In this document: positions 19,297-60,000 of the stretch, piece after piece
How positions within the stretch are numbered: position 1 is the first letter of the stretch
Layout: each line of letters opens with the position of its first letter
Origin: Geosiphon pyriformis
Lineage: Eukaryota; Glomeromycota; Glomeromycetes; Archaeosporales; Geosiphonaceae
DNA length: 64,000 bases
Reading direction: 5' to 3'
Assembly (NCBI GenBank): GCA_016748015.1
Contig: JAAOMT010000083.1
Location: forward strand, 4,765-68,764
Notes under the pieces: model-generated
The model's database searches: none
What the model saw: only the letters and a program-made list of their open reading frames with translations
What the model was told of the DNA's origin: nothing
Translations under genes and position numbers: made by a program

Positions 19297-19456
19297 AGAC
19301 GATCTCTACCCGATTTCGAAAAGGCCTAGCCTTTTTTGGAATGTGATCAGAGGTTGAAATCCTTTATTTATTGGCAAGACAAACTCTTTAAAAATCCTTC
19401 TTTTACCAATACAAAATATTCAAGGTTTAATAATCTATTTCTGTTGCTTGAAAATC
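19297..19456 (+). promoter_or_regulatory. Upstream block shared by both Sel1 genes
   Basis: The DNA just before the ATG at 19457 matches the DNA before the second Sel1 gene (29126-29319). Shared pieces include AGACGATCTCTA(C/T)CCG, then GTTGAAATC followed by TTTATTTATT and AACTCTTTAAAAAT, and TTGCTTGAAAATCATGTCTT at the start. The duplicated unit therefore included the promoter and leader, and this block probably contains the promoter. No TATA box or factor site can be named with confidence. Confidence 0.6.
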
Positions 19457-21121
19457 ATGTCTTCAACCTCTTCAATTGAAAACGCAACTTCCCCCCTCGA
19501 CTGGCTTGAAGGAACATTGCTTGTCATCAAAGAAAATTTGCCTATTTTTCCAGCTAATGAATATTCAAAAGTTGCTGACTTAGTTAAAAATCATCTTGTA
19601 CGCAATCAGAAAACACCTGAAAATTTTTTCGATTACTTGAATGAGAAAAATTCAAAGCGTCCGATAGATAATATTTTACTCGGCTTTTCTTTAGAACATG
19701 GGATTGGAACTATTCCTAATTTACCAAAAGCATTCCTAGAATATCAAAAAGCAGCGAAGGCAAAAATTTCTTTTGGACAATTCTTCTTAGGTTATTGTTA
19801 TGATAATGGAATTGGTACTTCACAAGATCAAGGAAAAGCATTTGAACTCTATTCAAAAGCAGCAGAGGTGGGACATTTAGAGGCACAATATAATCTTGCA
19901 CTTTGTTATGATAATGGAGAAGGAATGATAAAAAATTCAGAAAAAGCATTTGAACTTTATTCAAAAGCAACAGAGGCAGGACATTTAAAGGCACAATATA
20001 ATCTTGCAGTTTGTTATGATAATGGAGAAGGAACGATAAAAAATTCAGAAAAAGCATTTGAACTTTATTCAAAAGCAGCAGAGGCAGGACATTTAGAGGC
20101 ACAATATAATCTTGCACTTTGTTATAATAATGGAGAAGGAACGATAAGAAATTCAGAAAAAGCATTTGAACTCTTTTCAAAAGTAGCAGAGGCGGGAGAT
20201 CTTGATTCCCAATACAACCTTGCACTTTTTTATGCTAATGGAAAAGGAACGACAAAAAATTCAGAAAAAGCATTTGAACTCTATTCAAAAGTAGCAGAGG
20301 CGGGAGATCTTGATTCCCAATACAACCTTGCACTTTTTTATGCTAATGGAAAAGGAACGACAAAAAATTCAGAAAAAGCATTTGAACTCTATTCAAAAGT
20401 AGCAGAGGCGGGAGATCTTGATTCCCAATACAACCTTGCACTTTTTTATGCTAATGGAAAAGGAACGACAAAAAATTCAGAAAAAGCATTTGAACTCTAT
20501 TCAAAAGTAGCAGAGGCGGGAGATCTTGATTCCCAATACAACCTTGCACTTTTTTATGCTAATGGAAAAGGAACGACAAAAAATTCAGAAAAAGCATTTA
20601 AACTCTATTCAAAATCAGCAGAGGTAGGACATTTAGGTGCACAATACAACCTTGCACTTTGTTATGCTAATGGAAAAGGAACAACAAAAAATTCAGAAAA
20701 AGCATTTGAACTTTATTCAAAAGCAGCAGAGGCAGGACATTTAAAGGCACAATACAATCTTGCAGTTTGTTATGATAATGGAGAAGGAACGATAAGAAAT
20801 TCAGAAAAAGCATTTGAACTCTATTCAAAAGCAGCAGAGGCAGGACATACAGAAGCACAATTCGAACTTATAACTTGTTATGAATATGGATGTGGAACAA
20901 CGAAAAATTTGGTAAAAGTATTTAAACTCCATTTAAAAGCAGCCGAGGCAGGAGATAAAGATGCACAATACAAGCTTGGATGTTGTTATCTGAATGGAAG
21001 TGGAACAACAAAAGATCAGACAAAAGCATTGAAATATTATTTAAAAGCAGCAATGGAAGGAAATTTTTTGGCAATTTACAAATTCAACCTTTGTTTTGAT
21101 AGTAGATTGGGAGAATTCTGA
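19457..21121 (+). CDS. Sel1-repeat protein, truncated paralogue
   Basis: This is a single-exon frame of 554 residues starting at ATG 19457 (MSSTSSIENATSP). Sel1 repeats are tetratricopeptide-like helical hairpins that act as protein scaffolds. After an N-terminal segment of about 75 residues (DWLEGTLLVIKE, VADLVKNHLVRNQKTPE) come about 13 repeats of 36 residues with the signature GxGTxKNSEKAFELYSKAAE. Four central units are almost identical at the DNA level (20183-20614). The last repeats diverge, and the protein stops at TGA 21119. The paralogue at 29320 continues from a comparable point into zinc ribbons and a kinase. The DNA after this stop still shows traces of that tail, so the gene lost its C-terminal half. 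It may still make a stable scaffold protein. Confidence 0.82.
   Translation: MSSTSSIENATSPLDWLEGTLLVIKENLPIFPANEYSKVADLVKNHLVRNQKTPENFFDYLNEKNSKRPIDNILLGFSLEHGIGTIPNLPKAFLEYQKAAKAKISFGQFFLGYCYDNGIGTSQDQGKAFELYSKAAEVGHLEAQYNLALCYDNGEGMIKNSEKAFELYSKATEAGHLKAQYNLAVCYDNGEGTIKNSEKAFELYSKAAEAGHLEAQYNLALCYNNGEGTIRNSEKAFELFSKVAEAGDLDSQYNLALFYANGKGTTKNSEKAFELYSKVAEAGDLDSQYNLALFYANGKGTTKNSEKAFELYSKVAEAGDLDSQYNLALFYANGKGTTKNSEKAFELYSKVAEAGDLDSQYNLALFYANGKGTTKNSEKAFKLYSKSAEVGHLGAQYNLALCYANGKGTTKNSEKAFELYSKAAEAGHLKAQYNLAVCYDNGEGTIRNSEKAFELYSKAAEAGHTEAQFELITCYEYGCGTTKNLVKVFKLHLKAAEAGDKDAQYKLGCCYLNGSGTTKDQTKALKYYLKAAMEGNFLAIYKFNLCFDSRLGEF
20183..20614. repeat. Four tandem 108-bp Sel1 units
   Basis: Four consecutive 108-bp units begin at 20183, 20291, 20399 and 20507. 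The first three are identical by eye over the whole unit and the fourth differs by one base (G to A). Each encodes one Sel1 hairpin (SKVAEAGDLDSQYNLALFYA with GKGTTKNSEKAFELY). Near-identity including synonymous sites points to very recent expansion or to gene conversion inside the gene. Confidence 0.95.
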
Positions 21122-29125: not shown

Positions 29126-29319
29126 AGACGATCTCTATCCGTTTAAGAATATAAATGAGGGTCTATTTTCAGAACTTAATTTCCCACTCTAGTATTTCAG
29201 ATTTCTTTGCATTATACGTTGAAATCTTTATTTATTAGTGAGACGAACTCTTTAAAAATTCTTCCAGTACCCACACAAATATTCAAAGTTTAAGAATCAA
29301 GTTTTATTGCTTGAAAATC
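29126..29319 (+). promoter_or_regulatory. Upstream block of the Sel1-kinase gene
   Basis: This is the counterpart of 19297-19456, with matching pieces in the same order up to the start codon (AGACGATCTCTATCCG, GTTGAAATCTTTATTTATTA, GAACTCTTTAAAAATTCTTC, TTGCTTGAAAATCATGTCTT). This copy is about 34 bp longer. Conservation outside the coding region makes it the best candidate for a shared promoter and 5' leader. Confidence 0.6.
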
Positions 29320-32300
29320 ATGTCTTCGACTTCATCAATTGAAAATGTAACTTCACACACCGATTGGCTTGAAGCAGCATTCATAGTCATCAAAGAAAGT
29401 TTGGCCATTTTTCCAGCTAGTGAATATTCAAAAGTTGCTGACTTGGTGAAAAAATATCTTGTGCGCAATCAGAAAACACCTGAAGACTTTTTCAATTGCT
29501 TGAATAATAAAAGTTCAAAGCGCTCAATAGACTATATTTTGTTGGGGTTTTCTTTAGAACATGGGGTTGGAACTATTCCTAATTTAACAAAAGCATTTTT
29601 AGAATTCCAGAAAGCAGCGAATCAAGAAGATTCTTTTGGACAATTCTTCTTAGGATGTTGTTATAATCATGGAATTGGTACTTCACAAGATCGAGGAAAA
29701 GCATTTGAACTCTTTTCAAGAGCAGCAGAGGTGGGACATACAAGTGCACAAAATAGTCTTGGAGTTTGTTATGAAAATGGATGGGGAACGACAAAAAATG
29801 AGAAAAAAGCATTTGAACTCTATTCAAAAGCTGCAGAGGTGGGTAATACAATTGCACAATATAATCTTGCGCTTTCTCATAAAAATGGAAAAGGAACGAC
29901 GAAAAGTGAGAAAAAAGCGTTTGAACTCTATTCAAAAGCTGCAGAAGCGGGTAATATAAATGCACACTTAAGTCTTGTACTTTGTTATGAAAATGGATGG
30001 GGAACGAAGAAAAATGAGGAAAAAGCATTTGAACTCTGTTCAAAAGTTGCAGAGGCAGGAAATACAATTGCACAATTTATTCTCGGATTTTATTATGAAA
30101 ATGGATTAGGAACGACGAAAAATGAGGAAAAAGCATTTCAACTCTATTCAAAAGCTGCAGCAGCTGGTAATATGAATGCACAACAGAGTCTCGCCCTTTG
30201 TTATCAAAATGGAAAGGGAACGACAAAAAATGAGGAAAAAGCATTTGAACTCTTTTCAAGAGCAGCAGAGGCGGGAGATCCAATTGCACAATTTATTCTC
30301 GCACTTTATTATGAAAATGGATTAGGAACGACAAAGAATGAGGAAAAAGCATTTGAACTCTATTCAAAAGCTGCAGAGGGGGGTAATATAAATGCGTACT
30401 TAGGTCTCGCACTTTGTTATAAGAATGGAAGGGGAACGACAAAAAATGAGGAAAAAGCATTTGAACTCTATTCAAAAGCTGCAGAGGGGGGTAATATAAA
30501 TGCGTACTTAGGTCTCGCACTTTGTTATCAAAATGGATTAGGAACGACGAAAAATGAGGAAAAAGCATTCGAGCTCTATTCAAAAGCTGCAGAGGCGGGT
30601 AATACGAATGCACAATATAGTCTCGCATTTTATTATCAAAGTGGAATTGGAACGACGAAAAATGAGGAAAAAGCATTTGAAATCTATTCAAAAGCTGCAG
30701 AGGCGGGAGATACAATTGCACAATTTATTCTCGCCCTTTGTTATCAAAATGGATTAGGAACGACAAAAAATGAGGAAAAAGCATTTCAACTCTATTCAAA
30801 AGCTGCAGCAGCTGGTAATACGAATGCACAACATAGTCTCGCCCTTTGTTATCAAAATGGATTAGGAACGACGAAAAATGAGGTAAAAGCATTTGAGCTC
30901 TATTCAAAAGCTGCAGAGGCGGGTAATACGATTGCACAACATAGTCTCGCATTTTATTATCAACGTGGAATTGGAACGACGAAAAATGAGGAAAAAGCAT
31001 TTGAACTCTTTTCAAGAGCAGCAAAGGCGGGTGATATAAATGCACAACAGAGTCTCGCACTTTGTTATCAAAATGGATTAGGAACGACGAAAAATGAGGA
31101 AAAAGCATTCGAGCTCTATTCAAAAGCTGCAAAGACGGGTAATACGAATGCACAACATAGTCTTGCACTTTGTTATCAAACTGGAATGGGAACGACGAAA
31201 AATGAGGAAAAAGCATTTGAAATCTTTTCAAAAGCTGCAGAGGTGGGAGATACAATTGCACAATTTATTCTCGCACTTTATTATGAAAATGGATTAGGAA
31301 CGATGAAGAATGAGGAAAAAGCATTTGAACTCTATTCTAAAGCTGCAGAGGGGGGTAATACAATTGCATACCTAGGTCTTGGACTTTGTTATCAGAATGG
31401 ATTGGGAACGACAAAAAATGAGGAAAAAGCATTTGAACTTTTTTCAAGAGCAGCAAAGGCGGGTGATATAAATGCACAACAGAGTCTCGCACTTTGTTAT
31501 CAAAATGGATTAGGAACGACAAAAAATGAGGAAAAAGCATTCGAGCTCTATTCAAAAGCTGCAGAGGCGGGTAATATAAATTCATACTTAAGTCTCGCGC
31601 TTTGTTATAAAAAAGGAAGTGGAACGACGAAAAATGAGGAAAAAGCATTTGAATTCTATTCAAAAGCTATAGAGGGGGGAGATTCGTGTGCACAATATAG
31701 TCTCGCACTTTGTTATCAAAATGGATTAGGAACGACAAAAAATGAGGAAAAAGCATTTGAACTTTATTCAAAAGCTGCAGAGGCGGGACATAAAATCGCA
31801 CAATTAAAATTCGCACTTTGTTATCAGAATGGATTAGGAACGACCAAAAATGAGGAAAAAGCATTTGAAATCTTTTCAAAAGCTGCAGAGACGGGAGATA
31901 CAACTGCACAACAGTATCTCGCACTTTGTTATCAAAGTGGAAGGGGAACGACGAAAAATGAGGAAAAAGCATTTGAATTCTATTCAAAAGCTATAAAGGG
32001 GGGAGATTCGTGTGCACAATATAGTCTCGCACTTTGTTATCAAAATGGATTAGGAACGACAAAAAATGAGGAAAAAGCATTTGAACTTTATTCAAAAGCT
32101 GCAGAGGCGGGTAGTACAATTGCACAATACAGTCTCGCACGATGTTATCAAAATGGAAGGGGAACGACGAAAAATGAGGAAAAAGCATTTGAACTTTATT
32201 CACAATCTGCAGAGGCGGGAGATTCAGATGCACAATTTAATCTCGCACTTTGTTATCAAAATGGATGGGGAACGACGAAAAATGTGGAAAAAGCATTTCA

Positions 32301-34581
32301 ACTCTATTCAAAAGGTGCAGAGGCTGGAGATTCAGATGCACAATTTAGTATCGCACTTTGTTATGAAAATGGATGGGGCACAACGAAAAATGAGGAAAAA
32401 GCATTTGAACTCTATTCAAAAGCCGCAGAGGTGGGTAATATAAAAGCACAATACGGTCTCATACTTTGTTATCAAAATGGAAGGGGAACACCGAAAAATG
32501 AGGAAAAAGCATTTGAACTCTACTCAAAAGCTGCAAATGCTGGTAATGTAAATACACATTTAAGTCTCGCACTTTGTTATGAAAATGGAAGGGGAACGAC
32601 GAAAAATGAGGAAAAAGCATTTGAATTCTATTCAAAAGCTGCAAAAGCGGGAGATATAGTTGCACAACACCGTTTGGGACTTTATTTTCATAGTGGATCG
32701 GCGACAACAAAAGATCTTGAAGAAGTGAAAAATCCAAGTCCAGAAAACAATCTTGAAACGCGTCATCGAAATGAATGGGCAACTGCGAGGGATCTGGAAA
32801 AAGCATTTGAACTTTATTCAAAAACAGCCGAAGAAAGAAATACAAGTGCACTATATAATCTTGGCTGGTGCTATCAAAACGGGTGGGGAACAACAAAAAA
32901 TTTGGAAAAAGCATTTGAACTCTATTTAAAAGCAGCAGAGACAAATAACTTAAACCAACGAAGTGAATTTCCTGATTTGAAAGCCTTTTATCTCACTTTT
33001 AAGGATAAGGATCAAGATGAGCTGGAACGTTTCATTTTACAGTTCCAAACTCGAGGTTTAAAATGGGCCTTTAATTCCAAAGAAGAATGTATAGATTTTG
33101 AAGTCTTTTTTGATCAGCTTTCAAATCAATTCAAATGTCTTAGATGTGGCAACTTGGGTTTAATCATTAGTAGATCTATTGACGAAATTGATAATATCTT
33201 TGAAGCAGGCTTGCCCAAATGTCCATTTTGTGATGATATCTCTACCCACTTACCGAAATGTCCAGAATGCTATCACAGATTAAAAGATCCACTTTGGTGT
33301 CAGTCCTGTGAAATATCACGATTTTCAAAGAATTTTGAACCATCGATTAGTGGAAATATAAATATTGATATATATATAACATATACACAGATTATTTCTA
33401 AAAGCTCCAGGGAATGTTTGGAATGGATTTCTCCCGACGAGATCACATTTTTAGATGAGGTGGGAACGGGAGGATTTGGTATTGTCAAAGAAGGTAGATG
33501 GGAGGGAGGCAGAATTCTATTTTGGGACAAGAAAAATCAAAAATATGAACGAACTGGAGTTATGAAAGTTGCTTTAAAATGTCTCAAAGATAGCCAAAAT
33601 ATAAAATATATCAATTCATATGAGGTATCTCCTTTTAAGTAATTTATATGATTTTTGGTTATTATTATCCCTATTTCTTTTTTAACACTAAAATATTTGT
33701 ATTTAAATAGTTTATTGCGCATCTTAGAAGTGCCTCTTGCAAATACGTCCTTGAATGCTATGGAATAACCAAAGATGTTACAACCAATGAATTTATTATG
33801 GTTTTACCATTTGCGGAACACGGTGACCTCAGAGCTTTTCTCAAAGTGAACAAAGATACTTTTACTTGGGAAATGATTCTTCATATTCTTTTTCAAATTG
33901 CCAGTGGCCTAAGGTTTATACATGAATCAGAACTAGTGCATGGTGATTTACATCCTGGAAATATCCTTATATTGAAATCAAACCCCTTAAAAGTTGCCAT
34001 TGCGGATCTAGGACTCTGTCGTCCTGCTAATTACTCTCCAGAGCCTGGCGAAATATTTGGTGTTGTTCGATACCTAGCGCCTGAAATTTGTAACTTGTCA
34101 CCTCATACTAAGCATACCAAGTACAGCGATATTTATAGTTGTGCTATCATTTTCTGGGAAATTATTTCAGGAGTAAGACCGTGGAATCATGTTATAGATC
34201 TTATGTCTATTCAATTATCTATAATTCAGGGAAAGCGCCCTTTAATCGAAAAGCATATACCTCAATGTATCCGAGAAATGATTGAAAAAAATTGGGCTGA
34301 TGAACCGCATTGCCGTGATAGTGCGGAAGAACTTCAAAAAAGGGTTATTGCTGCTCACGACAACTGTAACTTAAATGAATCTGTTCTTAAAAACAAACTT
34401 AATTCCAAAAAGATACAAGATACGACATATTATAGAAGTCGTAAAATCTCAAGCCCTATAGTTTCTCAAAATGGTAAGCCTTTCATTTATTATATTTTAA
34501 TATATAATGAAATTTGGTTTAACCACATTTTTTTCAGAGTTAGATTTGGCATTTGATAGCAATAATGGGTTAAATTCATAA
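29320..34581 (+). CDS. Sel1-repeat / zinc-ribbon / protein kinase fusion
   Basis: There are three exons, 29320-33638, 33728-34473 and 34538-34581, with introns of 89 and 64 nt (GT-AG). The total of 5109 nt gives 1702 residues. The ATG at 29320 matches the paralogue's start. Order: an N-terminal segment (residues 1-75); about 30 Sel1 repeats of 36 residues (to about 1210); a cysteine region (about 1273-1330) with CLRC, CPFC, CPEC and CQSC pairs, enough for two zinc ribbons; and a protein kinase domain from about 1370 to 1650. Kinase landmarks are the glycine loop GTGGFG (about 1382), VALKCL with Lys about 1420, HGDLHPGN (Asp about 1513, HGD instead of HRD), ADLGLCR (DLG instead of DFG, Asp about 1533), and RYLAPEI. 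The key residues are present, so activity is plausible. Sel1 arrays are scaffolds, which suggests a signalling protein. The first donor (AA/GTAATT) is weaker than the second. Confidence 0.88.
29620..32720. repeat. Sel1 coding tandem array, 108-bp period
   Basis: Roughly 29 units of 108 bp lie head to tail inside exon 1. A nearly invariant core encodes GxGTTKNEEKAFELYSKAAE; divergence is concentrated in the second helix (for example AGNTNAQHSLALCYQN versus GGNINAYLGLALCYKN). Higher-order pairs exist: two neighbouring units near 30370-30530 are almost identical, and a block near 31010-31120 recurs near 31440-31570. The antisense strand is also open in many units, a by-product of the repeat's composition. 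Confidence 0.9.
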
Positions 34582-34925: not shown

Positions 34926-36408
34926 TAAAAGATTTTTTTACTCAAAAAAACATATTCCCAATCACTTATTTTTATTTGCATAGATAACATAATATTTAAA
35001 TTTAGTATTTAATAATGACATTATATAAATTGTACACTTATCAATTTTTGAGGGTATTTTACAATTTAGAATTCAGTTTTTGATGGACTTTTAAGATTTT
35101 CAACTTTAATCAAATCAAATACCTTTTATCCCTCGATTTTATGATTTACAATGCAAATTTCAAAACCAAAGAAAAAATAAGAATGATATAAATATTCAAA
35201 TATTTTTAGGGAAAACCAAAGATATATTTTTTAACTTAATAAAAATAAAAAACTTTTACTCAAATATAATTTAAGAACAAGTATAAGTCTGCATATGTTT
35301 TTTTAATAAATATACTTGAAAATTAATAAAAAGCTAAATATCAGATGTTTTTTGATAAATGTAATTTTTGACAAAATCACTAAACATAAAAATCTCCAAT
35401 AAATTGTTTCGCTTGGAAGATTAATAAATTTTAATATTAAAAAACAGGATTTAAAACGCAAATTAAAAACTATTAGATAGATCTGTTTAAATTTTTTATT
35501 ATTTTTAAAGAAATTACAAGAAATAAGTTTCATACATGCAAAATGCTATAAGCTATTACGGAAAGTCACATTCTAATAATCAATATTTAAGCTTTAAAAT
35601 TATCAATCATAAAATTAAGCAAATAGGAATTACTAAAATAGAAAATCTTTGTTGAATTGAAAAGTTATTACAATGGTTAAAAAGTAAGGCTATAGAAAAA
35701 AATAAAAAAAATTTCATTTAAAGATAATCTTCATTTTATGTTTATACATACATATTTAATAATATTTTTGCCTAAACTTGACACAAATGTTTAAATAAAA
35801 ATGATTTTCAAGTTCATAATACATTATAATGTTAAACTTAAGTTACCCAAACTTTATTGATTTTTTTTTGAGAAATCAAGCCTTTATTTCAGATATTGAA
35901 TTTTAAATTTACAATGAAATCCAAAAAATTATTGATTAAGCTATCAATAAATTTTTGAATTTGTTTTTGATTCTGAAAATAAAAATATTGATATCATTAT
36001 CGTTCAACCAATTAATCTATTGGTTTTTTAGCTAAATTAATAAGCACTGGTTCAAATAATTTGTTAAGATAATATATTTATTTAATATTATTTTAGAAAT
36101 ATTATATAGTATTAATAAAATATTGTTAATAAATATATCTAAATGATATAATATTATATATATATTTTTATATTTTTTATATATATTTTTTTATAAATAT
36201 TAATATTTTAAAATAAATTCAAAATATATTAAAATATTATAAATCTAATTATATTTATAAATTAATTTAATTATTTAATATCAATTTAACTATGATTAAT
36301 GTATGATTGCATAATATATCATCATAATAATATAATATCTTATGCATCAAATTATTTTTATTATATATATTATATTTTTTAATATTTTGTATCTTTTAAT
36401 TTTCAAAT
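34926..36408. other. AT-rich intergenic stretch
   Basis: No gene is visible. The last 350 bp (36050-36400) are almost pure A and T with TATATA runs and lie against the start of the Plavaka-like relic, where the element's end would be expected. No clear terminal repeat could be picked out. Confidence 0.55.
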
Positions 36409-39400
36409 ATGACTTTAAAAAAGTGTTTTTGTGCAAAAGACCGAGGAAAAAAAGTTGATATTCGAAAATGGTGAAAACATAACAAACAAATGCTTTCTGA
36501 ACAATTTTCATGAAGTGCGACTGAATTATATACAACAACTTCATCATATTCAACAAAAACAAAATACAATACCAGTATTAAAGATTCGACTCCAATAATT
36601 AATGAAACTCCAATAATCAATGAAAAATTAATTAAAGATAATACAGAAATATTGATGAACATAATATTGAATCCAATATAATAGAAATAGATAATAAAAT
36701 TTTAAATTATATAATATTATTTCTAAAATTAATATTAATTTGTAAAAAATTGAATTTAGATCCAAATCGAAAAATGTTACCACAAATTTCATCGAAAATG
36801 AAATATAAAAGACAACAACAACTATTGCCTGCTGAAGAATTAAACATATTTGCCAATAATATATTACCTAATTCAATAGAATCTGATAAACAATTTGGAA
36901 TTATTGAAGATTCATTAATCCTTTTGGATAATAATAATGATTATGATAAGTTTATCAATGAATTAGCAACTTCTATTTCTAATATTCCATTACAATCATT
37001 AGAACCAATTGGAAATCTTAAACAACCAATATTATTTATTGTACCTATTCATATACAATGGACAATTTTATTTATTTATTTATTTCAATCAGCATATCAT
37101 CTTTTATCAACAAGTATTGCAATTCTAATTAAATTTATTTGGACTTTTTTATTATTTTTAGGACAAACAACAATACCAAAAAGTTTATATTTAAATCGTC
37201 AAATCCTTGGAATAACTGACAATATTAAAAAATATATTTGTTTATCATGTTATTAATTATACAATTTGGATCAATATGCCAGTAAAAATTAGCAATATTA
37301 ATGTACCAAGAACAATTGTGAACATAATTTCAAGAAAATAATTTTAACATCTAAAAGAAAATATTTTTATAAAGTATGTATTATTATGTTTTATTTATTT
37401 ATTTTAATTATTTACTATTTATTTTATTTTATTTTTTATTTATTTATATTTAATTTTTAATTTAAATTTTATTATAGCCAATTAAAAAATTTTCATATTC
37501 TTCAATTATTCAACAAATTGGAAAATTTCTTAATCAACCAAATGTTGAAACAATAATAAATCATTAAACAATACATTAAAATATTCCAAATAATATTTTT
37601 TCAGATATTTATAATAGTCAAATTGAGAAAACATTTAAAGATCAAAATAATAACCAATTTTTTAATATTAATACTATTAAAAAACAACTTGAATTGGCTT
37701 TAAATATAGATTGGTTTGAATCTACTAAACATATAATTTATTCAGTTGGAGCTATTTATCTTACAATTCTCAATTTTCCAGGACATTTATGCTTCAAAAT
37801 ACTCTATTAGTTAGCATTATTTCTGGTCCACAAAACCATCAGTTGAAAAAATTCAAGGATATTTAATTCTAATAGTTAATGAATTATTACAATTATGAAT
37901 AGGACAAATATTTTTAACTCCTTAATATTCAATTAGAAAAAAATTTCAAGCTACTTTAATTTTAATATTATATGATATATCAACAACTCGAAAGATAAGT
38001 ATTTGTCTTGTATAATCATTTTTAAATTAATTTATTAATTATCTTATGATTAGATTTGTAGTTTTTTAGGACATTCATCACATTATGTTTTTAATAAATA
38101 TAAAAAAACATTTAATTCATTTAGTAATAATAAAAATACAAAAATTGATTATTCTGACTTTAAAAAATATCCATTAAAAGATTCTAATATTTAATAACAT
38201 TCCGTATAAGATTGGCTAATAGGCTTAAAAAAAATACATCAACAAATTGAAAAAACATTTAGAGTATATTAAACACTATTTCTTTAACTTCTATATATAA
38301 ATATTTAATAATTTACTATTATTGATTTTATATATAATATTTTTTTGGGTATTAAACAATGAATGTTAACTAAATAGATAAGTAAATCTAATTTAATAAT
38401 TGGAAAATCACAGCTTTAAAATATATAAAATATTATTAATAATATATTTTTACTATTTTAATATTAGTTATATACTATTTAGACTTTTTTTAGTTAATTG
38501 CAGATTAATAAAAAATGTGGATTTTAATTTATTTAACATTTATATTTCATGAATATTTGGATGATAATTAACAACTAAATTGGCAAAACTTTGTTAATTT
38601 AATATTATTTTAAAGCCAAAGAATATTAATAATTAAAAAGTTCAACTTGGTTATAAGCTAATAATTAAGTTTCTTAAGTTAACTAAAAGTCTTTATAGTA
38701 AGCAATTTATTACTCTGAATATGTATATATTTACTTCAAAAAAATTTTGATTATGGTCTATTTTATGTATATTGATATTTTGCTTATAAATAAATGAATA
38801 AGTAAATATTTGTTTTATTTGTTTTTAATATAATAACTTAATAAAAATAAAATTATAAAATTATAAAAATTATTAACTATATCAATATCAAATTATTCTA
38901 TTGAATTAAAGTTATAAATTAAATTAATTAACAAATTTAAGTACAACAAATTAGCACAAAAAGTAGTATCAACTTTTTTAAAATTAATTATGAAATCTTT
39001 AATATTATTAAAATTATTTAATCTATTAATTAAAGGTACTCTTAGAAAATATTCATTTACAGTTAAACAGGTATTAAAATTCCAAAATTTGGCTTTGCAA
39101 AATTTAATAACTCAAATTACTGAAACTGAATGAATACTTAGAGAACTCAAAAAACTATTTCGAGAATTAACATTAGATAAACATACTCTTTAAATACTTA
39201 TACAATATTATTAAAACCTTTATCTAACTTTAATATTTAAAAATACAAGATTTTAACCAACTACAATTCAAGTTACTTCTTAAATTATTCGAGCTTTAAT
39301 ATTTACAATTGGTAATAAAATATTTGGATCTTTAATAAACTAATTTGATCTTAATGCCTATATTGTGGCATAATTTCCAGATAACTAACAAAGAAGACAT

Positions 39401-39755
39401 TACTAGCCAGAAATTATTTGGTATTATTTAAAATATTTCTTGAAAATACCAAATAATAACAGCAATTCTTATCAAATAGAACATTTATTTTGTTATATTA
39501 ATTAGTATAAGCCAAATAAATTTCGAAATCACTTTTATGTCTATAAAAATTATTATGTTGTTTCGACTTTGGCATATTTAGGAATGATAAATGCTAAATT
39601 ATAGAGTAAAAGTTTTTATCTAAAAGACTATTATTCAATAATTCCAGTCCAAAAAATTATGAATTGGTTTATTAAGACAAAATATACATGACAAGGAGCA
39701 GAAAAAATAATTGTTGTAATTCCATTAAATTCAAATTAGGAATTTAATTATATGT
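36409..39755 (+). mobile_element. Decayed Plavaka/CACTA (KDZ-like) transposon
   Basis: A transposase frame can be followed over 3.3 kb. The N-terminal part has a CFCAKDRGKK-type cysteine motif and RKW. Next is a 168-codon open piece (36750-37256) with LLPAEELNIFANNILP and a hydrophobic stretch. A probable intron at about 37374-37477 precedes PIKKFSYSSIIQQIGKFLNQ. The core contains YSVGAIYLTILNFPG (about 37741-37785) and GFLGHSSHYVFNK (about 38059-38100), both typical of Plavaka-type tnp2 transposases. The C-terminal part holds EHLFCYIN and YSIIPVQKI (39480-39660). Stops occur throughout, mainly TAA, TAG and TGA at former Gln, Arg or Trp positions, with few indels. Terminal CACTA-like inverted repeats were not located. 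The family call is from recalled motif order and needs a search. Confidence 0.8.
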
Positions 39756-40044
39756 AAAAAAACAGAAATACACTTATAAAACATTATAAATAAATTGATA
39801 ATTCATTATGCATAATTTAATAGATTATTATGCCGTTTACTTATATATAATATATAATGTAAAATATATACTTGATTTATTCTTTCTTTTTTTGTTTACT
39901 TTCTTTTCACTTTATCTTTGCTTCTTATTATGATATATTTCAAATATGAATAAGAGCAATAAAAGCAGAAAAAAACGCTAAAAGGACTACAAATACAGTA
40001 TATTCAATAACAGACAATGCTCTTACATATCTTAATAGTATTAC

Positions 40045-46361: not shown

Positions 46362-49300
46362 TGGTAAAATATATAAAAAGCTTTGAAATATTAATATTTC
46401 GATCTGTAGTGTTTAAGAAAAGGCATTTTCACAAAATCAAATCAGCGCTGACTTATAATACATGTAAATGTGATCGACAGGTGATCTTACTATATTTATT
46501 TAAATCGGGTGAGATTCCACCTCTACAAAATTAAGAAGTTTTGCATTTTTCGTTACTCTGCAGATATAATTAAGTTTTTGTTATTGTTATTTTATTTTTT
46601 ATAACAATAATGGACAATTTGGTAGAAAAAAGTAATCATTAATACAATAGTGAATGAATTAAAATTTAAAAACCTCACAGAAGCACAGCTTTTTTGTTAC
46701 AAATTGGAATAACACATTAACCAATAGCAAAAAAAACAAGTATTATATAATAAAAATAATCAAAAAGAAATTTCAATTAAAAAGTGAATTAAATATGTAT
46801 AAATTAAATATGCAAATTTGTTTTATAAATATCTCAGCTATTATTTTTCAAAGAGTTTAAAAAAATAAAAAAATGGTCTGTACTGTTAACAAAAGATAAC
46901 ATAACTAATATAATTCTATGTCTCAATTAGTGCTTGTAAAATTTGGTAACAGATATTGTTTGTGTTTTTCAGTAATTATTTATTTAATAAGATTTCTTAA
47001 AAGCGTAAGATAATTATATATTAAAAAAAGAAAAAAGAAAAAAAATTATGATCTTTTAGATAAAAAATGTACGAAGAATTTTAATTATTGTGTTAAAAGA
47101 ATTGATTTAAAAAATAAGTGTTTTAAGAATTATTTTTGTGACTAATATTTTTTTACAGCTTTGAAAAATCTTGTTTATATATCTTCAAAAAAAACAATTA
47201 ACCAAATTAATAAACAAATTAATGATTAGATTAATAATTAAGTCATTCATTAAGTTTATTATTATATTAATAAAAAATTATTATAAATAGATGATTTTAA
47301 AACTAAAAATAAAATATCTTAAAATTTACACAACTTTCTTTTAAAACAACCTAATAAACAGCAACTGATTTAATAATATAAAGCTCTTAAATAAAGATTT
47401 TTGTTTTTATAAATAATAACAAGCCAATATATTCATATATATTGATAAAACTTAAGATTTAAAAGAGTATTTAGTTTTATTTTAAGTATTTTGAAATAAT
47501 ATATTTTGTTTTATTTTTTTAAACACACTTAGCAAAATTTTTAATTTAAATGTAAAAAAATAATATGCTAGTAAAATTGTTTTACTTTTTTATTAAATAT
47601 TTGTAAATTATCTTTTTTTTATACAAAATTAATATTAATTTTGAGTATAAAGCTTTCTTAAAAAACAATTTTCTTTGCACAAAGTTATATAAAGCTGTTT
47701 AGTATTGTTTTTTGTTACTATTTATTTGTTTAAAAATTTTAGTTCAAATAAAATTTGTTTTTAATCTTGTTAAATTACATATTACAACATATATAGCAGT
47801 ATTAAAAAATAAAAATAATAGTTAATTTGATATTTTTAAAACTTTTGTTAACAAAAGTAGTATTTTTAATGATATATAAAAAATTTTAATTGTAAATTTT
47901 TGAATTTATTAATCTTTTAAGTAGTTATAATTAATAAATTTATAAAAAACTATAATAATATTTACATATTTTACTTATATTATATATATTTTAAACAATA
48001 ATATATAGAATTTTAAAGATAATTAATTAAATACAAATATTATAAGACTAAATTAATAATATTTTTTTATTTTTATCTAAATAAAAAACATTAATTTGCA
48101 TTTATTTACTATAAAATTAAATTTAAAATTTAAAAACAAAATATTTTAATATTTATAATTTAAATATTAATAAAAATTTAAAGAAGTTTTTTTATTTTAT
48201 TTTTTTTGTATTTTTGATTAAATTTTTCAGTTTTAAAATAACTTTTAACAAATAATTAACAGATATTATGAATTTTTTTTATTATATATTTTATAAGTAT
48301 GATTTAATTATTATCTAGTATATATAAACAAACCAAGAATTTATAGTTAGACAATTCATGTTTTTGTTATATGTAATTAGCTACTTAAATTAGTTAAAAC
48401 TATATTATACACTTATAACTATATTAATACTAATACTTAAACAAAAAAAATATATGTGTTAATTATATAAATTCAAATTAACAATTACAATTTTATTAAT
48501 ATTTACCAACTAAATTATATTATTTAACAAATATTTTATTAATTTATGTAAATTATATAAAATTGATAAATTATTAATAATTGAAATTCTTTTTTTTATT
48601 ATTAGTTAATATATAAATTAATATAATTAATCTTATTTTTGTAACTTTTTATTAAATGTTAAATTACTAAAATAATAAACAGCTTAATCAATTTAGTTTT
48701 TTTGAATACTAACAAAATTTTAGTATACTATTTACTAAAAATTATATATTTATACAAATAATATATTTTGTATTAACTAAAACACAAAAAACTATAAATT
48801 ATAATACTAAAAAAGATAAAACTAATATATTTATTAGAAAAACCCAAAATTTTAAAGCTTTTTTTAATATATTTAAGCGAATTTTAATATTTAATTTATA
48901 TATAAAATTATAATTCAAAAATTCAATCTTATTATAATAAAAACAAATCTTCTTAAGATATTATTTATTATATAAATATTTTGAATACCAATTATAAGTT
49001 ATTTATAAACAGTTTTTATAATATATATATAGATTAATAATATATTTATTGTTAATATCTAAATATATGTATAAAATTAAATATCATAAAGTATTATATT
49101 AATATTAAGTCTTATTTTTTTACTTAGTATTCTAGATTAAATTATAAATTTGATAAATAAAATAATAAATATTGTTTGAAACAACCATATTTTTTGATCA
49201 AAATTTTAAGAAAAAAGTAGCAGCATAAGTCAATTTATTAATAATTATATTAATAATTATACTTAAATGCTTTATAATTTTAAATTATACTATTAAAATG

Positions 49301-52300
49301 TTTTTATTATAAATAAAATTGTAAATTTGTTTTTTTAATCTAACAACTATTGTAAATATTAAGTTTATACAAATTAAACTTAAAAATACAAACATTAATA
49401 GTAATTTAACTGTCTAAATAAATAATAACTATATTTAAAAAATATATTTAAGAACTAAAACAATAATTTGCAGTTTAATAAATATTAATAACATTAAACT
49501 GAAAACCCAAATATTAATATTTAATTCCAAATTTTTAAAATATACAACAATTCTATTAATAATACTATAAAATCTTAATTTTTTTAATAAATTATCTGTA
49601 AAAACATTAATAATTAGCAGTTATATTTTTATCAAACTTTTACTAATCATTAATAAATTATTAGATTTTAATATATTCTGCCAAAAATATTATTTCCAAA
49701 AGAAAAATAGACTTATAAGCAAATTTTTTTTGAAAAAATTAAGTAATAACAATAAATTAATAAGATATTAGATTTTTAAGATTAAGTTTTTTTTATTAAT
49801 AAAAAGTTTTTTAGTTAAAATTTTGTTTTACTTATTAAGTAATTGCTTGTTAAAAATTACACTAAATTTTTTTAAAGAATAAATTACATTAAAATACAAC
49901 TTTATATTTAAAATATTAAAAATAAAAATATTATTTAAGTTTAAAAATATTAATAAAATAAACCAAATCAAAAAAACACTATAATTCAAAATAATTTTAA
50001 TCATATTAATTATATTAACCAAAAAATTGTTAATTAAATTAATATATAATCTAACTAAATAATACAAAAATTTAGCAGAGTTTAATTAGAAATCTATAAA
50101 TCTATAAATCTGTAATTAAAAAACCTATTAATAATATTAAATATATTTAAAAATAAGACTAAAAATACTATTTTGTTTTTAGCTTAAACCTGGTTAAATA
50201 ATTTAAAACTATATAACAAAAAATAATATAAAGCTTTATTTAAAAAGTTTTTAAAAAAATTTGCCTTATATCTTAAATTTTTATATATTATTGTATTTTA
50301 CTTCTGATACATATTTTTTAAAATAAAATTGAATTGTAATTTATAATTAATTATTAGTTAAAGCATAACAAAAACCAAATACAAGAACTATTTATCAAAA
50401 ATAGCTTTTTTAAAATTATATTTACAAAAAATTATATATATAAATAAATTTTAAACATATTAAGTTTAAAAAAATTATTTGTAAACAAAAAAATTAATAA
50501 ATAATAATACATTTTTTTGTTTTTTACTATAGCAATTAATAAATTGCTAATAAATAAATTAGCATTAGTAATATATTTGTTGATAAAAATAATCACAGTT
50601 TCTTTATTTAATAAAAATATTATTAATTTAAAAAATTACTAATCATATTAAAAATATATTGTATTATAGTATAATTATTGTTAATTCAGATAATATTATC
50701 AACAAAAACATTAGCTTTTAAATATAATATTAATTTAAAATAAGTATTAATATAATTTGTTTTTAATATGCATTTAAATTTAATATAATAACCAAAAAAC
50801 TATTTATGTTTCTTTATTTTGTACAAAAAAAATTAAAAAAAATGTGTTATAACAAAAAAAAAAGCTTTACTTTAATTTTAATTATTATAAAATTTTATAG
50901 TTATTATTTAATCTAAAATCAATTATTACATGATTTAAATAGTTATTATAAATGCTTTTAAAAAATTTAACAAATTTAAAACATATTTTAATTCTTAATA
51001 AACTGTTTTTTAAATAAAACTATTTATAAAATTATATGTTTTATATATATTCTATAAAATTAATTACAATTTACAATTTTTTTTAATACATTTTTTATAA
51101 CTAAACTATGGCAAAAATTAGTAATAAAATTAATATACTTTTTAAAACTAAAAAGTTGTTATTACAAAAAATATTTAATTAACTACATATATTAAAAATA
51201 TAATTTAACAAAAACTTTGACAAAATTTTATAAGCAGTTTTAATCAGAATTATAAAATAAATATTTGTTAAAATTTCTTTCTAATTATAAAATATAAGAT
51301 TATTAAAACTTATACATATTTTTATTAAACAGACACTAATTTTAAAGCCAAACAAAAATTCAAAAAAACCAAAAATAAACTTAAAACACTTATATTATAA
51401 TACTATTAAAATTTATTTAAAATATCTAAAAATTTAATTGTCTTATTAACAAAAAGCAACTTTATTATTAAAAAAAATTTATTTAAAATTTATTTTTTTC
51501 TAAAAAACTATTATTATTTTGCAAAAAAATATTCTAAAATAGTAATATTTATTAAAATTAAAATGTTATTACTAATTAAATAGATTTTAGTAATGTTTAA
51601 TAACTTAACAAAATATTTTTTTATTATAATGTGTCTATACATGTAAAATTACTTATAAAATAAAAAAATTTATCAATTATAATATTATATTTCATATAAA
51701 ATAGCTTAATAATATATAAATAGTTCTAAAAAACATAAGTTTACAAATCATATTATTATACTTAATATAAAAACTATAAATAAACACAATATTTATAGCA
51801 TATACAAAGCTTTTAATTAGAAAAAAGCTTTAAAAAACTTGATTATTAATAAAAAAATATTGTTTAAAATTATTTAAAAAAATATGTGTATTTTTGTGTT
51901 AAATTAGAATCTCAAGATATATACTATTATTATTAACAGAAATTTAAGTTATTAATTAGCATGAAATTATTTTTATAATTTTTATTATTAATAACTTAAT
52001 TTGTATAAAACACAAATATAACTAAATTATAATAATTAAAAACTATAATATACTAAATTATATAACAACCAGAATTTGTCAAAATATTTAATAATTTATT
52101 AAAATAACTTATAATTTAAAAAAATAATTTGTAATTTGATAAAATGTATTTTTAGTTTACCAAAATATTAAGAAAAAAAAATGCTAAATTATAGAATAGT
52201 ATTACAATAAATTATATAAAAATAGAGCTTTTTTCTTCAAAATAATGTATTATTTCTTAAATATTTTTTTAAAATTGATTTATCTTACAAATTAATTCAA

Positions 52301-52506
52301 TAAAAATTTATCTTAAAAACCCAAAAACTTTTAATTATTGTTATTTCAAAATTAATTATTTTGTATTAATATTTGAAATTAATTAACTATTAATTTTAAT
52401 AAATATTAATAACTTTCAAATCTAAATTCAAACTGACTTCTTTGAATTATTTCTTTATTTTTTTTTAGTTATTTTTTTATTTTTATTTTTTTCTATATTT
52501 TTAAAT

Positions 52507-52640
52507 AACTTATAATTGAGATTTTCTGTAAAAGAGTTGACTTTTTTAGCAAAGTAATTACATATTATTTAGAAAGTTTATAAATAAAATTTTTTGTAAA
52601 AGAGTTAACTTTTATTACAAAGTGATTATACAAAATAATT
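52507..52640. repeat. Tandem duplication of about 68 bp
   Basis: Two adjacent diverged copies share TTTTCTGTAAAAGAGTTGAC against TTTTTTGTAAAAGAGTTAAC and then CAAAGT(A/G)ATTA. Offset is about 68 bp. No function is evident. Confidence 0.7.
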
Positions 52641-54750
52641 GATACAGAATTGGCTATTTTATTATAAATTTAACAACAAACACAATTCAAAATATAGAAA
52701 AATAATTTAAAAAATAAATAAGCTTATTGATGTTTATTAACTTCTATTAAACAACAAAATTAATAACAGCAAAAAAAAATAAAATTTTTTTTGATAATAC
52801 TATAATAAAATAGATAATAAAACAAAAATTTTTCAAAGTTTAAAAAAACACCAAAACACTAATATATTAAGTAAATAATTAGTAATTTTAAAAGTTGTAA
52901 ATAATTAAATTTTTTTAATAAACAATAATATTCATATAAGTAATGTAATTTTCAATGTTTTTTTTATTATATTTATATTATTTCAAAGTTTAAAAAAAAT
53001 ATAATCGAATTTGATAAATAATTTTATTGTTAAAAAAATTACAATAAAAAAAAACAAAAATTTGAATAATTATTGCTTTATATAATAATATTAAATAGAT
53101 AAACTTTCTAATAAATAACAAATTTAATAACTTAAAAGTTTTTTAAGTTTTTAAATCTAACTTAAATTCTTTTTGGTTAATATATTCTATTTAATTATAT
53201 TTTAAATATTAAAAAAGCCAATTTGATTATATTATATAAACAAAAACTAAAAAAACACAGTATTAAAATTATTTTGGTATTTGACAAATAAAAAATTATT
53301 TTAAAACAACATATTTTGGCTTATTATTAATTTTATTAACTAATAAAGTTCAAATTTAAAAGGTAATTAATATAAACTTAAATAAAAATAAATAATTAAA
53401 ATTATTCCTAAAATTAAAATTATATCAAATATATAGGCTAAATTATTAGTAATTATTTTTTAATAATATATTAGTATATATTGCAGTAAAATAAAAATTT
53501 ATATTTATATTACTATTTTGAACAAATATTGGCTATAATTACAATACCTAAAATTTATTTTCTTTTTATGTTTTACTTATGAATATAATCTTGCCATAAG
53601 TAATATATTTAAAAAACCTAATAAATTTAAAACTGTATTAAAACAAATAATAACAATAGTTAATTATTTTAATAATACAATTTATTTATATTTTATCAAA
53701 AAGTTTCGAAAAGTTCAAAAATAAATATATTCAAATTATATTACTTTAATTTATTCAGATAATATTTATTAGAATTTTTATTATTATTGTCTTAAAAATT
53801 TTGTCAAGCTTTAAAAATAAGTATATAATTATAGATTTATTAATTTAATTAACTTTTAATTTAACATTAAATTTTTCAAAAATCTAGCTATTATTTATAA
53901 ATTATTTTTAAATCAACTTTTAATTCATCTTAATAAATTTTATTTGTTATAAAATATAATATTGATTTTGCTTAATAACAATTTTTGATAATTAATAACA
54001 TATTTGTATTTTCTGTTTTTTCTTTATTATAGAACTTTTAACAAATCACAATTAGATACTATTTGTTTTTATAAAATATTACAAGCTTTTAATTGCATTT
54101 TAAAAATATGAAAAGAATATTTAAATTAAGATTTAACACAATATATAATTTAATAATTAGGGTAAAAATAGAAAAAATAAAAGCAACTTTTATTATTGTT
54201 AATTTTTTTTTAAATTCAAATATTCATAATATATAATTTAAAACTAATATTGAAATTTAAACTTTATATATTTTGCTTAATTTATTACTTATTATTATAA
54301 AACCTGATTTAAATACCAGTTAATTTATATTTTGTTTGAGTTAGAAAAATATAGAAAACGAAATTATTTCTTTAATTTTATAATATATAAACAATTTAGA
54401 AAAAATATATTAAGATTTTGAAAATTTGCTTTCTTTTAACTAGAAAATTAAATTTTTTGACAATATATTTATTTAAAATTTATGTCAATATAGTATTTAT
54501 AAAGTAACTATAAAGTTCAAAAAGATTTTTTTATATTAATTAATAAAACTATTTTCAAGTAAAATATTTTTATTTATCTTTATTAAAATAAACAAATTTA
54601 TTGTTTTTTAAAATTTAAAATAAAAAAGTATTAGCTATAAGCTAAATTTATTCTTTAATTAACTTTTTTTAATGAAAAAACGAATTTTATAAACAATATC
54701 TTGTTTAACCAATTCAATATACTATTTATCAATAAAATTGTTAATAAGTC

Positions 54751-54785
54751 TATTAATAAATTTTTTATTAAAAAATTTATTAATA
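54751..54785. repeat. Perfect 35-bp AT palindrome
   Basis: Two 17-bp arms (TATTAATAAATTTTTTA and its reverse complement) flank a single central base. Composition is pure A and T, so it could fold as a hairpin or cruciform, but chance is a reasonable explanation in this sequence context. Confidence 0.8.
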
Positions 54786-56940
54786 AAATAAATAAATGTA
54801 AAATAGATAATAAACAAAATAAATTGCAAAATATTAAAATATTAAATATAATAATATCTAATAATTAAAAAATCAATTACATAACTGGAAACAAATATTA
54901 ATAGATAAAAAAAATTGCCAGATTAGAAAATAAAAAAACAGAAATAATAATAATGGCAATATAAAAAGTAATTTATTAAATAATTACAAATATTTAGCAA
55001 TAAATAACAAAACAAAATAAAAACTAATTAATATATTTGGTTTATTGTTTTAAAAACTAAATTTTATAAATAATAATAACTATTTTTTATTATTAATATA
55101 TACATTTTTATTGATTATATTATTTATCATATTTATATTTTAATTAATTAATATTATGTTAGTTTTAATAAAATAATTGTTCTAATAAGAATTTCTATTA
55201 AAATTATTAAAACTCTAAAAAAATTCGAATGTTTAATAAACTTTTTAATATTTAGTATCAATCCTGTTTTAAAATCTTACATATTATGTTATTTTTATTA
55301 TAAGCAAAATTTTTATGTACTTATTAATTGCTAAGTTAATTCTATCTGATTTAACTTTGTAAAATTCATGAAATTTCTTGATATAATAAATTTTTGGGTT
55401 ATATAAAAAGTTAAATCAACAATATTAAAACTTAAACCAACTTAAATACTATTTTAAATAATTCTAATTATTTCAGAATTTAATTTTAACTATTTATGTA
55501 TAAATTTAACAAAATTCATATCTAAAACTAAAAATAAATACTTAAATAATTTGGAAATTAGAAATTTTAATTTCAAGAAATAAGATAAACAAAAATTTAT
55601 TATATATAAAGTCTTATTAAACCAAGTGTTAAAAAACACTTATTTTGTATATTATATTTAAATTACTTATTAATCTTAGTTTTTTAAAGTTATTTTTTAT
55701 AATATTTAATTTTTACAAAAAATATTCTTAAATTTAACCTATTTAATATTTTTAATATTCTTAAAATTATATTTTTAATGATTTTTATTGATTTATTTTC
55801 ATAAATTAAAAAGTATAATATTTAAAAATCTTTTTCTAACTCTAATAAAATACATATAATCTTATAATCTATTAAAAAAAACTTCTGTGTATTTAATATT
55901 CTATAAATTATTACAATATTATACAAAAAAAACAAAAACAAAATAAAATTTATAATTTTTTTAATCTTATAAAAATTCATCTATGTAAAAATTTTAATAA
56001 ATAAACTATCTAAAAGTAAATTAATCAGACTAAAATTCAAATATTTTTTGAAACTAGTATTGTATTTTGTATTATTTTTAAAATTATTTTCTAAAATAAT
56101 AAAAATATTCTTATTAAAAGTTTTAATTATAAAATTATTAATAATTAAAATTTGACTTAACTATATACTTAAAAATATATTTTTATATAATTTTAGTATT
56201 GTGATTAACTATTTGTTTTTGAATACTGACTGAATTATTAAAAGCTGATTAAAAACTTTTGAGATTTTAAAAACATGTTTAATTAAATAGTTATTTATGA
56301 TTATTATAATACTAATATCTAAGAAGTTTAAATTTAAACCAGATGTAAATACTTTTATATTATTAAATTTATTAGTAATTTAAAGTTTAATATTAGAATA
56401 AAGCTTAATTTTTATTATAATTAAAACATTATTTTTTATTTTTTTATGTTATTTAATAATATTATTTTGTTTAATAAAAACATTTATGTTTTTAATATTA
56501 CATATAGTTATTTTTTAAGTTAAGCTACTTATTGAGAATAAACAAGATTATATTACTACTTAAACAAAAGCAATCAAGTTTTTTTAATATAAATTTTATT
56601 AATCTTTTAAATTATTATATTAGCTTTCAGACTATCAATTTTGAAAGTTAAAACTTTAAAATTATTTAAAAAAAGATTCAAAGAATTATGTATTATATTA
56701 AATAAAATTAGATAACTTAATAATAATTTGTCAATAATTATATTTAATTTTATGTTAAAATTTTGTATAAGTACTTTATTGGTCTTAATAATAAAAATAA
56801 AAAACATTTAATTTGTAAATAATTTTTGAAACATAGTTTATAAAAAACTTCAAAGAATATTCTAAAATCTTAATACATAAATTTAAAGTTATTTTTACAA
56901 AAAAAAGTGATCCAAAAATATTGGAAAATGTAATTATTAC

Positions 56941-57010
56941 ATAATAATATAAAATAATATAAAATAATTCAAAATAATACAAAATAATATATAATAATGC
57001 AAAATAGTAC
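56941..57010. repeat. Seven 10-bp tandem units
   Basis: Seven consecutive decamers of the AAAATAATAT type, with variable last two bases (AT, AT, TC, AC, AT, GC, AC). The array lies inside a minus-strand frame made of Tyr, Ile, Leu and Phe, which is an artefact of the repeat. Confidence 0.9.
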
Positions 57011-60000
57011 AGAAAAACTAGTAATAATATAAAATAATTAATTATAATATAAAAAAATAAAACAATAGTAAAAATAGTAAGCAATAATTAATAACAACAA
57101 ATAATTAAAAGCAATTTTATAGAACTAAAAAATATGTATAAAATAAATAGTTTTAATAGTTAAAAAAAAAACTGATCAGACAAAAATTAATTTTTCTTTA
57201 ATATTTTATCTTTATTCTAATAAATTTTTATCTTATTCTTATTTATATTTTTTAACTAATCTAATAAAATAATATTATTTAATTTACAATTATATGATTC
57301 CAAAATTTTAATTGCCAAAATTTAATTAATTGTTTTTTTTATTTTTATTTTAAATCAGATACTATTAACATAAATACTTTTAGAATTTTAATAATTTAGA
57401 CTAATTTTTCTTGATTATAACAATTGATAAAATACTAATTTCTTTTATATATTTTTTTATTTTATTTTTTATTTTTTTATTTTTTATTTTTTTTGTAAAA
57501 TAACAATATTGAAAATTAATTGTTTTTGAATTAAACTTCATAATAGCCTGATAAAAGAGAAAAGTTTTTTCTAAATTTAAATATTAACTTTATTTATTAG
57601 TTTATCAAAAAAACAAAAAACCAATGCCAAATTTTAACAACTATATTTGACTAGCTTAGAAAAAAAAACATCTCTGTATCTTATAACAAAAGAACTTAAT
57701 AAATAAAACTTTAAACAAAAAATTTTTTAAAGATTAATAATTTATTTTATTACTAAAATTAATTTATTTGAAATTATTTTGTTTTTAATATCAAATTATA
57801 AACACTAAATATTATAATCATATTTTTTAAAATTTATTTATAATATTATTAAACATATTAAGCAAACTTTTTGCTAAAAAAACCTAAAATAATACAAATA
57901 AAAGACTTTTTATCATATTGCTTATTATAAAAGCTTAATTTATACTACCAAAAAAGACTAAACAAGACACAAAAATCTGTTTTTTTACATAAATATACAT
58001 AATATAATTTTTATTTGACATAAAAAATTTAGTTTTATTTTAATTAAGTAATTTGGTATTTAGTATATTAATATTAAAAATATGATCATATTTTTTATAA
58101 TTAATATACACTAAAATTAATAAACAAGTCCAATTTAAACTTATATTCTTAAACATCAGAATTACACAAATAATAATATTTTTAACAAAAACAAAATTAA
58201 AACATATAATAATATAATATATATATATATAAGAAACAAAATTATAAGAAATAAAACAATTTTTTTTATTATATAATAACAAATAATCTGAAAGATTATG
58301 AATAGTAATATTTATTAACAGTATATATAAAAAAGTATAATAGCAGATTTTTAAGTTTTATATTTGTTTTTTATTGTTGGTTTTGGCTATATATACAAAG
58401 TTTTTATTTAATAAAATTAATTATTTAAAAATAATTAAATTTATAATTTTAATACTCTTAAACTTAATCAATATTTTTTATCAGAAACTAATAATTGTAG
58501 TTTGATTATTTTAATCTTATTAAATTTAAATAATATTAATTTTAATGTTAATTTAAACAGATTAATTAGACTTTTCTTAATAATAATTTTTTAATCTAAT
58601 TTAATGCTAATTTTTATAAATTCATATTAATCAAAATTTTTTTACTAATAGCCAGCTTTTTAATTACTTTTAAATTAAATTTAAAAATAAACATCAATTA
58701 AATAATGTTTTAGAAAAGTAAGTGCTTTTTCAAAACTATTAATTTTGCAAAAAAAGATTTTTAATATTTTTAAGTTTTTTATTTAATATTTTACTAGATA
58801 TTATAATAAAATTAATGTTTAAAGCAAAAAACTTAACTAAATTAAAGCATTTTTTTTCTTTGACTAATATATTAAACAACAAAATAAAACCAATAAAAAC
58901 AGATGGTAAGAGATCAAAAATTTTATTATTATATAAAAAATTATAAAACAGCTTTTTAGATGACTTTTTAAATAGTAAATTCATATATGTGTGTCTTTTA
59001 AAATTGTTTTATTTATGTATTTATTATTATTGAATATATTAAGATTGATAAAATTAGTTTTTTTATTATTGTGCTTTCAAGTTTTTAATGTTAAATATTT
59101 ATTAATATTATCTTTTTTACTCTTAACTTTATTGCTTTAAGAATAACATATAATTATATTATTATTTTTTAGCATTTTTATGGCCAAAAAATTTGTTAAT
59201 AAATTTATAATATTAAACTTAATAATAAGTCTTTTAAATTTTTTATTGAGTTTTTTTAACATATAAACATAAATATTTCGGTTTTTTTTGTGTTAAAACA
59301 GTTTTTACTTCAATTTTGTCAATATTTATAGCTCTAACCAAATTGTTAATTAACTTTATAGTTAAGTATAAAAATAAATGAAAGAAAAAAAATATAAATT
59401 TTTTACAAATTTTAATAGTTTTATTATAAACAGAAGATCAATAAAACAAAAAATTTTTTTATTAAAGTTTTATAATAAGTATAAAATTTTAAATTTTAAA
59501 TCTTTTTATTAATAAATAAAATAAAATACACTTTAATTATTAAATAATAGAAAATAATATTTTTATAACAATATTTTAAATAAATATTTTTTAATAATTT
59601 TATATACAATAAAACTTATTATAAGCTATTTTTGAATTTAATAAATTAGAAAATTTTAGTATTAATTTTAATTTACTTATTTATTTTTTTTAGAAAAAGC
59701 ATTTTTTATTCAAAAAACAGTTTGAAAAACCAAAAAAATTATATATAATTATATTAAAAATATTAAAATTAATTAATTTAAATTCTTAAATAAAATAAAG
59801 TTAAATTTTTAAAAAAATTTTTTTAAAAAAAAATTGCATAAATGATTTTAAAATTATCTAATTTATTTAATTTTTTTATTGGCATTTTTTGAATATTTTC
59901 AAATAATAATACTTTTATTTTCATTAAATTTGTATATTTATATTAAATTTATTAAATATTAAAAAAAGTTTATTTTCTAAAATTAATATTTTTGAGTTAT

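Follow-up and report, generated by a model that had tools for sequence, protein, structure and literature searches.

A process that directs C-to-T mutation at silent DNA, both repeats and the spacers around them, very probably operates in this genome. The basis for this reading is the direction of the changes, their intensity, the scarcity of other changes, their independence from the transversion clock and their locality. The genome analysed comprises 124.7 Mb in 406 contigs, and the window is a stretch of 64,000 nucleotides within it (contig C159:4765-68764). An earlier note had described in this window a transposase frame rich in stop codons and had proposed directed, RIP-like C-to-T hypermutation rather than slow decay. 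Directed hypermutation is strongly supported: in alignments of repeats, C-to-T and G-to-A changes dominate, run in one direction and are accompanied by few transversions and indels. The CpA-to-TpA signature expected of RIP, however, does not appear in any of the three alignments studied. Two observations had been named as pointing instead to plain AT bias, and they part company here: CpA/TpG sites are indeed unenriched, whereas the types of substitution differ greatly in frequency.

A MITE-like family as mutation yardstick

The rate and direction of change can be read from a family of short MITE-like elements, one copy of which lies in the window:

18438 to 19240 (ends approximate), forward strand: MITE-like element with inverted ends of about 30 bp, a lightly mutated GC-rich copy

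The element is about 730 bp long and has 31% GC in the window copy. It shares 71% identity with a copy of 10.9% GC at C290:57727-58430, which, compared with window positions 18534-19233, has lost C or G at 121 sites and gained it at five, with 20 transversions. A search of the genome revealed many copies, of which 25 were aligned, and the changes were polarised on the six most alike (light) copies. Since T-to-C changes are nearly absent (at most 0.8% of A/T sites), this polarity is secure. Across the 25 copies, GC descends from 32% to 9.4% and C-to-T changes affect 2% to 69% of C/G sites, with transversions at 0.3-1.4% of sites and one to seven indels in each copy. From the six light to the twelve heaviest copies, the mean C-to-T hazard, 0.037 in the former and 1.03 in the latter, rises 28-fold, against a step from 0.0062 to 0.0078 in transversions per site. 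A model in which transversions are proportional to C-to-T changes fits 52 log units less well than one that holds them constant, and, judged by the upper profile-likelihood limit on the slope, C-to-T changes per cytosine are at least 200-fold above transversions per site. Clock-like slow decay under AT bias is rejected for this family. Moreover, such a ratio exceeds the known yield of spontaneous deamination.

The stop-rich frame and its relic

The frame described in the earlier note belongs to a degraded AT-rich element, the parts of which are:

36400 to 39757, forward strand: the AT-rich relic as a whole, with partial copies at C290:38405-38708, 55321-56167, 60278-61381 and 123873-125682
36642 to 37253, forward strand: exon-like frame farther upstream in this relic, open in the window copy and with ten stops in C290:123873-125682
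38918 to 39757, forward strand: longer frame of 280 codons enclosing the reported one; codons 1-71 are open
39242 to 39757, forward strand: reported frame, 172 codons with nine TAA/TAG and one TGA inside

The description of a frame of about 170 codons with nine TAA/TAG and a single TGA is accurate. The TAA codons are at 39254, 39281, 39341, 39371 and 39386, the TAG codons at 39404, 39503, 39602 and 39737 and the lone TGA at 39689, and the frame closes with TAA at 39755. At least five CAA codons were said to be kept, and five are counted. The frame had been called free of indels and is nearly, though not wholly, so: one gap of a single base falls within the stretch, and there are seven gap openings in the 1107 columns of its alignment with the copy at C290:60278-61381.

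The stop count is by itself not beyond chance for such AT-rich DNA. A dinucleotide model predicts 15.7 internal stops against the 10 observed (P(<=10) = 0.077), of all frames of this length (516 nt) between 36 and 44 kb of the window 19% hold ten or fewer, and one antisense frame likewise holds ten. It is the GC bias among codon positions, not the number of stops, that makes a former coding frame credible. This bias, which supports a coding past for the stretch, amounts to 0.26/0.25/0.15 in the reported frame (p = 0.03) and to 0.26/0.22/0.13 in the longer one (p = 0.0006), the latter being unmatched by any 840-nt background stretch tested at 48-59.8 kb.

All four partial copies on C290 have a lower GC content than the window copy. 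The copy of the reported stretch at C290:60278-61381 is 82% identical to the window over 1107 columns. The two differ by 188 substitutions (162 transitions and 26 transversions), with 125 losses and 37 gains of C or G from the window to C290. These 26 transversions in 1.1 kb are above the level of the MITE-like copies, so part of the decay of the relic is ordinary. Each of the ten stops inside the window frame has a stop as its counterpart in the second copy, where the TAG and TGA codons read TAA, as do two of the five window CAA codons; a Gln origin is thus unreadable from this pair. At the given mutation load, the ten shared stops may be older than the split of the copies or may have arisen in parallel, and the former codons of this stretch were inferred, in the earlier note as in the follow-up, without an intact relative. 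The differences are spread evenly over the three codon positions (31/36/31), which implies that constraint at the protein level has been absent since the two copies parted.

The claim that the stops lie at former Gln codons, which the ten codons of the reported frame cannot uphold because both copies have stops there, does hold for the upstream exon-like frame (GC3 = 0.08, 204 open codons). Seven of the ten stops that C290:123873-125682 carries in this frame correspond to CAA in the window, two to TGG and one to TTA, so that Trp codons also contribute. Seven of 11 CAA codons and both TGG codons have been lost in this way, and nine of the ten stops are C-to-T or G-to-A changes.

The Plavaka/CACTA label given to the relic presumably reflects a resemblance at the level of motifs. 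Pfam searches with frames of the relic, whether broken at stops or read through them, gave no useful match and no support for Plavaka/CACTA. The PF18759 profile had no match in the genome and was silent in the control genomes of that family too, and an approximate C-terminal probe of related transposases also found no match in the genome. Weak matches of the read-through frame to retroelement gag-like frames (E 0.04-2.6, 24-31% identity) were taken as chance.

Sequence context and genomic distribution

The context of the process is weak. In the MITE-like family, the converted fraction by 3' neighbour is 0.70 for CpG, 0.58 for CpC, 0.52 for CpA and 0.44 for CpT, with CpG the most affected (p = 3e-14); by 5' neighbour it is 0.60 for TpC, 0.56 for CpC, 0.53 for GpC and 0.42 for ApC, a 5' T being favoured and a 5' A disfavoured. 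Among triplets in the heavy copies, TCG is converted most and ACT least. No preference for CpA is found in this family (0.52 vs 0.54 elsewhere, p = 0.28), in the alignment of the relic at 39242-39757 (0.60 vs 0.62 elsewhere, p = 0.88) or in the copy at C290:123873-125682 (0.47 against 0.50-0.58), and dinucleotide-based RIP indices therefore describe the process poorly. The standard indices, which had been proposed as a check, are positive in the parts of the window with 11-12% GC, as a RIP-like reading would have it; given the measured contexts, however, we take them to be positive because ApC is relatively protected and not because CpA is attacked. A strand-run test on the MITE-like copies detects no runs, the hits on one strand being intermixed with those on the other, and hence there is no trace of single events.

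Other repeats and genes allow the extent of the bias to be followed:

59998 to 61299, forward strand: further repeat that, set against a copy richer in GC, has lost 144 C/G and gained 39, with 67 transversions
19358 to 21118 and 29242 to 33639: pair of large genes that contain 108-bp tandem repeats and share about 75% identity, serving as unmutated controls
C318:788280-789372 and 820713-821336: small C5 methyltransferase gene and its partial copy, 32 kb apart, 90% identical, without hypermutation

Another repeat pair (L020 and L073) has 197 losses and 43 gains of C or G. The methyltransferase duplicate (0.9 kb) shows 17 transversions beside 40 transitions and only a slight direction, and in the tandem-repeat genes, taken as Sel1-like, transversions and transitions stand at about 1:1. 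Because both lack it, the C-to-T bias is not genome-wide. The heavy MITE-like copies sit in spacers whose GC stays near 0.10 over about 400 bp of surrounding sequence; in several cases it climbs back to 30-40% farther out. The lower the GC within the nearest 350 bp, the higher the C-to-T load of a copy tends to be (Spearman -0.50, p = 0.017). This correlation and the AT-rich flanks suggest that the target may be the region or silent chromatin rather than the repeat itself. A gag-like retroelement family with 4299 candidate places has been touched by the process lightly (115 transitions and 8 transversions separate members L081 and L083) and has largely escaped it among its best matches. Each of the best 150 of the 4299, a selection that favours intact copies, has few stops, and open frames of 500-700 aa are many among them (e.g. 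C250:465587-466210). So many nearly intact copies argue against an efficient repeat-triggered process.

Two further parts of the window differ from the rest. At 60001-62500, a repeat of about 25% GC has a CpG observed/expected ratio of 0.00-0.04 with other cytosines remaining, so that a CpG-only pattern adjoins the all-context one. At 48001-60000, 12 kb at 11-13% GC without long frames are more extreme than their surroundings and may be a block of centromere type or a stack of hypermutated repeats.

Mechanism, alternatives and relation to known systems

The stretch at 39242-39757 is very probably a piece of a dead DNA element, eroded like other silent repeats and the surrounding spacers. Near-exclusive C-to-T mutation on either strand turns CAA/CAG and TGG codons into stops wherever it meets a reading frame. 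In silent chromatin, C might first be methylated in all contexts by enzymes of the DNMT1 and BAH types encoded in the genome, and then deaminated. Such a methylation step is favoured because genes for DNMT1-type and BAH-bearing methyltransferases are present; that it precedes deamination has, in our estimate, slightly less than an even chance. A PF00145 search identifies a DNMT1-type gene (C96), two genes that combine a BAH domain with a DNMT1-type core (C355 and C327), the small methyltransferase with its partial duplicate (C318) and two Dnmt2-like genes (C307 and C346). Motif VI is ENV in every methyltransferase seen among these best candidates, the gene models of which are incomplete. RID/Masc1 enzymes carry EQT or EET in this motif (PMC6709928); no such enzyme was found among the best PF00145 candidates with their incomplete models. 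Judging from these sequences, RID is likely to be absent from the genome. The RID/Masc1 group, without BAH domains, and the Dim-2 group are known from Ascomycota and Mucoromycotina (PMC7862722).

Plain AT-biased spontaneous mutation, by which a dead element would drift slowly to an AT-rich equilibrium, agrees with an AT-rich genome, with AT-rich spacers that reach beyond the elements and with the transversions and gaps of the relic. It is very improbable in view of C-to-T loads that vary 28-fold at nearly constant transversions, the defeat of the proportional model by 52 log units, a ratio of at least 200:1 per site and the absence of bias from gene duplicates and tandem-repeat genes. A reassigned code, by which TAA and TAG would encode Gln in a gene that still functions, would suit the finding that the nine window TAA/TAG codons all correspond to stops in the second copy. 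The unconstrained codon positions, the TGG and TTA codons turned into stops in the sister exon copy and the long frames that the standard code gives in other parts of the window leave it hardly any credence. An APOBEC/AID-like cytidine deaminase that attacks silent DNA while it is unmethylated and transiently single-stranded is unlikely: the weak context, the favoured 5' T (TpC 0.60 vs ApC 0.42) and the hits in all 3' contexts would be in keeping with it, but both strands are affected alike, without runs, and the CpG preference fits methylation better.

Two well-known processes come closer in kind. Deamination of 5mC at CG sites alone would be expected from methylated TEs such as those of Rhizophagus irregularis, for which it has been inferred and in which most TE loci carry CG methylation (PMC8647823). 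Chemistry and target class are common to both, CpG is hit most, CpG observed/expected falls to 0.00 at 60-62 kb and DNMT1-type genes are present. Here, however, all contexts are involved, non-CpG cytosines being converted at 44-58% and providing the majority of changes, and the ratio of C-to-T to transversions is at least 200; CpG decay may be an additional contributor, and as the sole cause it is quite improbable. Classical RIP, that is premeiotic, homology-triggered C-to-T mutation at CpA through RID and/or DIM-2, is alike in direction, intensity and target class. As in Pezizomycotina, directional changes affect both strands of repeats, stops at Gln and Trp codons interrupt transposon frames, AT-rich compartments are present, with positive RIP indices at 11-12% GC, and transversions are very low. 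In contrast to RIP, CpA is unpreferred in three of three alignments, an EQT/EET methyltransferase was not found among the candidates seen, high-copy elements survive (the gag-like family mostly intact among its best matches) and an old 0.9-kb gene duplicate at 90% identity is untouched. Repetition as a trigger is here only a possibility, the flanks being AT-rich too, and classical RIP seems to us a very doubtful explanation.

Directed C-to-T mutation of silent DNA, the reading that we prefer, also has counterparts beyond ascomycetes. The RIP-like mutation of Basidiomycota is biased towards CpG or, in Pucciniomycotina, TpCpG (PMC4014442), and includes the case of Rhizoctonia solani AG8; it shares with the present process a preference for CpG and 5' T and, probably, the lack of RID. 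The context is much looser here, since CpA, CpC and CpT are converted at 44-58%. A survey of 1,239 fungi (2025) reports RIP-like signatures in ascomycetes only, with CpA preference (PMC12543289), and PMC8647823 cites RIP as undetected in Gigaspora margarita and Mucoromycotina. The mean GC of Glomeromycota assemblies is 27% (PMC11134847). In a literature search that left most subscription journals outside, we found no description of C-to-T hypermutation of such a kind in Glomeromycotina. Against the ascomycete-only picture of the survey, a strong quantitative signature is seen here in a genome that probably belongs to Glomeromycotina. If it is confirmed, the restraint of transposons in these fungi and the AT-richness of their spacers would be open to direct test. 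It is conceivable, if rather doubtful, that a fungus of the arbuscular-mycorrhizal type possesses its own mutational defence, converting C to T in almost every context within silent transposons, with neither RID nor CpA preference. This would be an independent counterpart of RIP outside Dikarya and, if premeiotic like RIP, would point indirectly to a hidden sexual cycle. Glomeromycotina have long been called ancient asexuals.

A separate observation concerns ribosomal DNA. A conserved 63-base probe detects a sole 18S copy (L084, C320:1046530, minus strand), in which the AM1 site was not found and the AML1 and AML2 sites have one mismatch each. It carries C-to-T and G-to-A changes mostly at CpG, for example GATCAAAGATGATCAGATACCATCATAGTC. 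Because these changes strike sites that we take to be nearly universal in eukaryotes, it looks like a degraded rDNA copy.
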